This document shows, piece by piece, positions 42,385 to 43,702 of a stretch of DNA of 64,000 nucleotides. This DNA is from Oscillospiraceae bacterium. GTDB lineage: Bacteria; Bacillota; Clostridia; UBA1212. Made by a program: the position numbers and the translations under genes. Under the pieces are notes generated by a model. The model did no database searches, was not told the DNA's origin, and saw only the letters and a list, made by a program, of their open reading frames with translations. The first letter of the stretch is position 1. Every line of letters begins with the position of its first letter. The stretch spans positions 62,001-126,000 of the forward strand of contig SVJA01000002.1 of assembly GCA_015069195.1 (NCBI GenBank), given 5' to 3'.

Positions 42385-42912
42385 TTAACCGATTTCATCC
42401 ATCGAAAAAACACAATAAAAATACGGACATTCCTTTGCTTTTTCAAACCGTTCAGCATCAGTAATATCATCATAAAAAAGCAAGTACTTTGCAGACATAG
42501 ATTGGTGTTCCGGCTTTAAAAACTCCGTATCAATTTGGAGCGATTCTTGTATTGATTGTTTGGTCTCATCGCCTAAATCAAAATACCACTCACCGTCTGT
42601 CTCTTCAAACATATCAAAGCTCCAACCGCAAAGAAGAACCTCTCCGTCTTTTACGAAATATTCAAGCTCGTTGTGCTTTACATATTCAATAGACAACTTC
42701 TTTCGGACAATGTAATTATAAAATCTTACTACATTTCTTGATGTGAGAAATAAACAATATTTAACTTTCAAATTTTTATAATACGGCATCCGATGATAAC
42801 GGATTATATCAATCGGAAGGAACAGCAAATAGCAAAGACATACAACCAATACAATCGGTATAAATATAATTGTTGCAATTATTGTTCCGATGGCTGACAA
42901 AAATTTTTTCAT
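42385..42912 (-). CDS. Uncharacterised membrane-anchored protein
   Basis: A 175-aa protein I do not recognise. One N-terminal membrane helix (ATIIFIPIVLVVCLCYLLFL, ~12-33) is followed by a soluble part of about 140 residues with several aromatic/acidic stretches and no known motif. It has its own promoter. Immunity-protein-like size and composition (Tyr/Glu/Asp-rich) are suggestive but not evidence. Confidence 0.6.
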   Translation of the reverse strand: MKKFLSAIGTIIATIIFIPIVLVVCLCYLLFLPIDIIRYHRMPYYKNLKVKYCLFLTSRNVVRFYNYIVRKKLSIEYVKHNELEYFVKDGEVLLCGWSFDMFEETDGEWYFDLGDETKQSIQESLQIDTEFLKPEHQSMSAKYLLFYDDITDAERFEKAKECPYFYCVFSMDEIG

Positions 42913-43018: not shown

Positions 43019-43041
43019 ATCACTTGCCTGCCTTAAAATTA

Positions 43042-43302
43042 TACACCGGCTTTATAACCCTTCAAGTTGTCTACGGTCGAAAATCCAAATACTTGTGACG
43101 GGAACAGTTTGGTGCAACTTATGCGTAAAAGAAACAAAAAGCTCCCCACATAATGTAGGAAGCCGGATAAGCATTGTAGCTTTTTATCTCTTTGAGAACT
43201 TAAGTGAGACACCTTGAAGCCGAGCCATTGCGATGGCTGAACGGCAATGTCGAACATATGTGTAGAAACGAAAAAAACTCCGTAAAAACGGAGTTTTTTT
43301 TT
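43042..43302 (+). ncRNA. Candidate structured RNA next to rpsI (unassigned; 6S-like rod possible)
   Basis: About 220 nt without a credible gene but with extensive complementarity: TACAC (43042) with GTGTA (43260); CTTCAAG-TTGTCT (43060) with AGACAC-CTTGAAG (43207); AAAAAGCT (43136) with AGCTTTTT (43178); and a hairpin GCCG-AGCCAT-TGCG-ATGGCT-GAA-CGGC (43219-43245). The last nearby element is an intrinsic terminator with nine T on the plus strand (43271-43302). A long rod with a small hairpin in the 3' strand of a bulge resembles 6S RNA, but the sequence match is not verified and the plus promoter is unclear. Confidence 0.5.
43271..43302. terminator. Bidirectional terminator between the structured RNA and rpsI
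   Basis: ACTCCGT-AAAA-ACGGAGT stem with T9 on the plus side and T7 on the minus side, 11 nt past the rpsI stop. Confidence 0.93.
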
Positions 43303-43312
43303 GATAAATTGA

Positions 43313-43702
43313 TTAACGTTTTGAGAACTGTGGAGCTCTTCTCGCTTTTTTCAAGCCGTATTTCTTTCTCTCTTTCATTCTCGGGTCTCTTGTGAGGTAA
43401 CCCTCTTTCTTTAGCTCAGGTCTGTACTCAGCATCAGCCTCGAGGAGTGCTCTGGCTATACCGAGACGGATAGCGCCTGCCTGACCTGTGTAACCGCCAC
43501 CCTGTACTTTACAGATGACGTCAAATTTTGTTTCGTTGTTTGTAGCTGTCAAAGGCTGACGAACAATAATCTTAAGAGTCTCAAGACCGAAATATTCATC
43601 CATACTCTTGCCGTTAATAGTAACATTACCTGTACCGGGAACGAGAGCTACTCTTGCAACGGATTTTTTTCTTCTGCCTGTACCGCAAAATCTATCTGCC
43701 AT
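43313..43702 (-). CDS. rpsI: Ribosomal protein S9 (uS9)
   Basis: A 129-aa 30S subunit protein. The [12 protein letters not shown] start and the [14 protein letters not shown] core are standard, and the C-terminal extension ends in [12 protein letters not shown], the tail that reaches the P-site tRNA. Length normal. Follows rplM by 19 bp in the usual order. Confidence 0.99.

Follow-up and report, generated by a model that had tools for sequence, protein, structure and literature searches.

The window, the whole stretch of 64,000 nucleotides of DNA that was analysed, carries the gene of 30S ribosomal protein S9, rpsI, and after the end of the gene an intergenic region whose features are given in Table 1. 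The segment 43042–43302 is a composite of unrelated parts: a promoter-like site and a fragment of an RtcB gene at the left end, a probable native terminator, and an insert. In the window rpsI ends CAG TTC TCA AAA CGT TAA. Past a terminator and a hairpin, the sequence AAG TTC TCA AAG AGA TAA is found, which again reads FSKR* (the asterisk is the stop codon).

Table 1. Features of the rpsI end and the adjoining intergenic region (positions in the window)
Feature	Position	Strand	Basis
rpsI (30S ribosomal protein S9), host gene	43313–43702	-	NF001099, E 2.1e-57
New rpsI 3' end supplied by the insert, TTCTCAAAACGTTAA (FSKR*)	43313–43327	-	Sequence and family comparison
Direct repeat TTTGAGAACT, gene-proximal copy	43320–43329		Repeat search
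Insert of 129 bp (unit 1), the distance between the starts of the repeat copies	43201–43329		Matched at 91% next to rpsI in G001
Terminator hairpin within the insert, now that of rpsI	43271–43302	-	Fold; kept in the far unit of G001
Structure-conserved hairpin, TAAGTG...CATATG	43201–43260	+	Alignments, covariance models
Direct repeat TTTGAGAACT, displaced copy	43191–43200		Repeat search
Displaced ancestral rpsI end, TTCTCAAAGAGATAA (FSKR*)	43184–43198	-	G002–G008 end AAGAGATRA
Probable native rpsI terminator, displaced	43139–43164	-	Position by inference
Uncertain second hairpin, possibly decayed (CTTCAAGTTG...CAACTTATGCG)	43060–43125	+	Neither covariance model matches
Short fragment reading VIKPVYNFKAGK*, C-terminal end of RtcB gene	43020–43058	-	Match to rtcB of G044
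Promoter-like site facing the minus-strand ORF 42385–42912	43038–43065	-	10/12 consensus positions

The window gene terminates AAACGTTAA, and the displaced copy is AAGAGATAA. In all seven examined genomes of the family outside the genus (G002–G008), rpsI ends AAG AGA TRA and other sequence follows directly; within the family the AAACGTTAA end is found, besides the window, only in the genus member G001. Since 7/7 family genomes keep AAGAGATRA, the distal FSKR* copy is ancestral, and it was the insert that supplied the end now borne by the gene. An insert of about 129 bp, without genes, has taken over the end of rpsI, and the end that it brought is synonymous with the ancestral one. Next to its rpsI, G001 has a stretch that is 91% identical to 43184–43312, and the hairpin is matched at five more places in that genome. 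Two units stand in tandem at rpsI of G001; between flanks shared with the other unit, the gene-adjacent one holds a different hairpin and a different terminator. The second unit is followed by the displaced AAGAGATAA. Read from the sequence, the rpsI arrangement has the pattern of serial site-specific integration with the target gene restored.

Two other genomes have additional rpsI ends. In G008, a second FTKR* end (TTCACGAAGCGTTAA) lies within 20 bases directly after rpsI (L060, after position 1890), perhaps another short scar. In G021, contig C44 carries at its start a second rpsI 3' end (L072:60-122) unlike that of its own rpsI; the genes that follow look, by reading, like a type I CRISPR-Cas set.

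On the left side of the window segment, the RtcB fragment comprises 12 codons and a stop and is 96% identical over 28 bp to the 3' end of rtcB in G044. No rtcB gene was seen beside it. Another integration may have left this fragment, too, as a displaced gene end beside the possible decayed hairpin at 43060–43125. We treat this reading as a lead only, because neither of the two covariance models described below matches that hairpin.

The earlier note had described 43042–43302 as a non-coding structured RNA candidate of about 220 nt with long-range complementarity, a nested hairpin and a terminator, compatible with a rod such as 6S RNA. The stretch is indeed non-coding, being intergenic and adjoining rpsI, and the terminator is real. 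The nested hairpin is real as well, with an equal fold reached in 6/200 shuffles on the plus strand and 0/200 on the minus strand. The rod itself did not hold. Folds of the whole stretch beat chance (z −2.8 on the plus strand, −4.9 on the minus strand) mainly because terminators are in them. With the terminator removed (43042–43262), z is −0.2 on the plus strand, which is at chance, and −2.7 on the minus strand; the left part (43042–43184) folds at chance on both (0.0 and −0.9, respectively). G001, the one other genus genome examined, has the hairpin part at 91% identity and lacks the left half. Conservation of structure stands for a core of 60 nt, in which pairing is strongly conserved in homologous regions, and falls for the extent of 220 nt.

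The covariance-model search proposed in the note, run here against Rfam with 6S and raiA among the families, gave no match at gathering threshold and none credible to E 10, so the view that no known RNA family fits the stretch was borne out. Both 6S RNA and raiA RNA remain below the gathering threshold of their Rfam models and are not among the matches to E 10; their common features with the stretch are length range and a terminator only. Rfam models found only tRNAs and one group II intron in 20 related loci. In a promoter scan, no site near the left end of the plus strand reached the threshold. A coding hairpin was rejected, as the copies differ in frame through 1- and 2-base indels.

The 60-nt core belongs to a family of hairpins with three sequence types, A (nine copies in alignment A1), B and C (one each), which have the common flanks TAAGTG...(C/A)ACGTATG. 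In all three types, an outer stem is followed by a 3-nt bulge on the 3' side, a 4-bp stem, a GA/GA internal loop, another 4-bp stem, a second internal loop and the apical stem. The window copy is without one inner pair (CCTT opposite ACGG). A descriptor of the shape finds five places in 314 kb, all in known units, and none in each of five Markov shuffles. In alignment A3 (10 sequences), 14 of the 21 pairs show double changes, and 0/500 shuffles reach any of the observed measures. In alignment A5 (85 matches), whose sequences were fitted to the covariance model and are hence biased towards it, 20/20 pairs covary, with 411 double-change cells as compared to 113 in shuffles. RNAalifold predicts 16 pairs for A5, all with double changes. 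The unpaired GA/GA loop is invariant, on one strand, in 80 of the 85 copies, and therefore selection acts on the folded single strand. The hairpin has the covarying pairs expected of a structured RNA; a selected single-stranded DNA would have them too.

The first covariance model (R1) was built from A3 and used to search the genomes of the class (n = 391). At E ≤ 0.01, it matches in 37 of these, referred to here as carriers; it also finds a third hairpin copy in G000, the genome to which the window belongs, at C17:205707. A second model of the hairpin (R2) matches in 53/391 at E ≤ 0.001, 16 of them outside the 37 carriers. Searching 41 control loci with the models gave the window locus, which was included in the search, as the sole match. 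An exact-pattern scan of the genome contigs for type A returned 11 stretches, of which three (RGIG4242) are credible copies by reading and the rest are chance-like. The family keeps its shape rather than its sequence across many gut Clostridia.

Many copies, though not all, sit at known integration sites (tRNA loops and the 3' ends of rumA and rpsI), at which the end of the host gene is found duplicated and restored. Among the tRNA genes, the T-loop is the site in tRNA-Leu (G000, G001) and tRNA-Lys (G200, with a 19-bp repeat), the D-loop in tRNA-Leu of G108, G156, G242 and G325, and the anticodon loop in G401. Further copies are located at tRNA-Tyr (G309), tRNA-Arg (G064) and tRNA-Glu (G259, the right-hand copy not seen), and G034 has, as read by eye, a tandem array beside a tRNA. 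Six genomes (G405, G255, G189, G372, G055 and G031) have units at the 3' end of rumA (family by TIGR00479). G189 repeats the rpsI scheme: the proximal end encodes ETVVMLTKSKATK, and the displaced end ETVCLLV. Units lie downstream of groEL in G351 and G230, the latter by protein similarity only. In G372, there is also a unit at the 3' end of a gene for a CcrB-like serine recombinase; the end encoded there, VETCCLL, is similar to that of rumA. This large serine recombinase (C1, L201:159-1859) ends NVETCCLLRK, and the hairpin units at its gene are the same as at rumA of that genome. Apart from rumA, groEL and a few recombinases, no common gene was seen beside the copies. The hairpin is antisense to rpsI in the window, to the tRNA in G034 and to tRNA-Arg in G064; it is sense to tRNA-Leu, tRNA-Lys and rumA.

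The tRNA-Leu(TAG) gene of G001 (C6, L070:8860-9600) is followed by three tandem units of 223 bp, in each of which the tRNA 3' end is repeated together with a terminator, and then by the displaced tRNA end. The scheme of rpsI is seen here too, and at tRNA-Lys of G200. In G000 (C7:20870, L121), tRNA-Leu(TAG) is followed by the left part alone of a unit of this kind and then by other genes; the right end was not found on the contig stretch searched. Among the 62 distinct tRNA genes of the two genomes, long downstream copies of the gene's own 3' tail occur only at tRNA-Leu (16, 14 and 9 bp), in a test where adjacent tRNAs share up to 11 bp.

Direct repeats of at least 14 bp straddle 25/66 hairpins as against 5/330 control points in the same loci, a count that takes in tandem and near-identical copies. 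A second set consisted of 20 copies, most of which came from genomes not in the first; here such repeats straddle 3/20 (0/200 for the control points). A tRNA or rumA end is present for five or six of these 20; the rest are in plain intergenic sequence or within other repeats. Copies in G350 are embedded in other intergenic repeats. Units made up of two hairpins are found in G210 and in L221/L222; in the latter case a phage contig has two identical two-hairpin units within gene clusters, away from any tRNA (L221:3395-3497 and L222:2054-2156). Part of the family thus occupies integration sites; the remaining copies are scattered, some of them within other repeats and in phage contigs. Searching phage and plasmid collections with the window unit gave two 35-bp matches in Synechococcus phages, both to query positions 78–112 (the terminator region), and none in plasmids. 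Two more related units gave nothing in these collections.

In our view the window insert of about 129 bp is rather probably a mini integrative element that has no gene of its own and that a site-specific recombinase, acting in trans, moved to the rpsI 3' end. The unit would insert at the end of the gene with its hairpin at the junction, and rpsI would stay intact because the unit carries a replacement gene end and a terminator. Such units would be non-autonomous, cut and joined by tyrosine or large serine recombinases that are supplied in trans and act as for integrative conjugative elements (ICEs), integrative mobilisable elements (IMEs) and phages at the same sites. The hairpin might be recognised as folded single-stranded DNA during transfer or recombination; this is a guess and the weakest step.

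The surroundings of the window copy yielded no recombinase, and the tyrosine-recombinase search of G000 gave two matches only, both Xer-like by reading. Recombinases of different types use the sites at which this one hairpin shape lies, and the shape by itself does not single out an enzyme. The unit at the gene of the CcrB-like recombinase of G372 offers the best lead, and that recombinase is a candidate helper enzyme. A XerD-like protein in both genus genomes (L078, L081) ends early (frames of 253 and 323 aa) and, by reading, is apparently without the C-terminal catalytic residues.

Several features of the insert are those of larger elements. In the part of PMC5704250 that we cite, ICEs and IMEs with tyrosine or serine recombinases integrate at rpsI, rumA and tRNA genes, a CIME (cis-mobilizable element) is a decayed element that keeps attL and attR without integration or transfer genes, and CIMEs are described as accreting in tandem with elements that arrive later. 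The units could therefore be remnants of larger ICEs, IMEs or prophages that have lost their genes at rpsI, tRNA and rumA, the hairpin being the conserved part of their ends. The window unit has the 10-bp repeat 129 bp apart and the displaced rpsI end, as retained attL and attR would give, and within its 129 bp there is no gene of any kind. With the CIMEs and IMEs described there (e.g., IMESag-rpsI) the units have in common the site at an rpsI or rumA 3' end, direct repeats, a restored gene end, tandem accretion and the lack of integration and transfer genes. A prophage-type contig with an integrase also adjoins a unit at a tRNA end (L220). The window unit differs in its size of about 0.13 kb (the smallest IME named in that part of the source has 1.7 kb, and most have 5–15 kb), in having no gene and in the same hairpin structure being present at unrelated sites. 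The size range of the units, about 120–230 bp, is constant over sites and families, the hairpin is present in 0/7 tyrosine-recombinase loci of G000 and G001, and no full-length autonomous member was found among the units. We regard decay from larger elements as unlikely. Because similar small sizes recur across sites and families and no longer version was seen, movement of the unit as such, that is, a mini integrative element, is the simplest reading.

A transcribed structured RNA, either a small RNA or a repeat RNA acting as a single strand, could have spread by duplication, with DNA mobility secondary. The retention of the unpaired GA/GA on one strand and the terminator after the hairpin on the plus strand are consistent with this. 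It is disfavoured by the missing promoter-like site at the left end of the plus strand and by copies in either orientation to host genes, and no Rfam family fits; we find it quite improbable. Relatives in both orientations fit mobile DNA better than a leader or housekeeping RNA.

If a Y1 (HUH) transposase directed a palindrome, of the REP/BIME type or derived from IS200/IS605, into the loops that single-stranded DNA forms on folding, those of tRNA genes among them, this would account for the many units with two neighbouring hairpins (G210, L221/L222) and for the insertion points in tRNA D-, anticodon and T-loops; in G378, a Y1 gene is also present at a distance of 190 bp from one weak match. 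Like REPs, CGTC- and GTAG-tagged palindromes and bacterial MITEs, the units are small, non-coding, multi-copy, imperfect palindromes and partly intergenic. They differ in their integration-site junctions with replaced gene ends, which such transposition is not expected to produce, and in having no association with Y1_Tnp. This domain is no commoner in carriers (22/37) than overall (213/391), was not found in the copy-rich G001 (69% complete), and the hairpin is present in 0/8 other Y1 loci. A REP with a RAYT, or an IS200-IS605 derivative, was rejected on these grounds and is very improbable. A text search of PMC3733652 gave no occurrence of Clostridi or Firmicutes.

An integron-type cassette site with its cassettes is largely refuted: like attC sites, the hairpins are at most variable in sequence and constant in structure within serial units, the newest of them apparently beside the gene, whereas the conserved loops are others, the junction repeats are long (up to 19 bp), and the integron integrase (TIGR02249) is over the cut-off in 0/391 genomes, with 19 weaker matches, none of them in the 37 carriers. 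To our knowledge, junction repeats of up to 19 bp are not a feature of integron cassettes.

No description of the element was found in searches of the open-licence literature, including the cited parts of PMC3733652, PMC2267715, PMC5704250 and PMC8040213; most subscription journals are outside this scope. Tentatively, the units might form an undescribed class of gene-less mobile cassettes of 0.1–0.23 kb, which would be defined by a hairpin of folded single strand, integrate at tRNA loops, rpsI and rumA by borrowing attachment sites that serve several unrelated recombinases, spare the host by replacement ends and terminators, and build up in tandem across Clostridia.

Mini units would explain why intergenic regions such as this one resemble structured RNA candidates. 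If units this small are mobile, the tRNA, rpsI and rumA hotspots hide a layer of elements, which annotation misses because they have no gene and structure is conserved instead of sequence. The units would then be natural reporters of the recombinases active in gut Clostridia, and the hairpin would provide a defined target for finding the enzyme.
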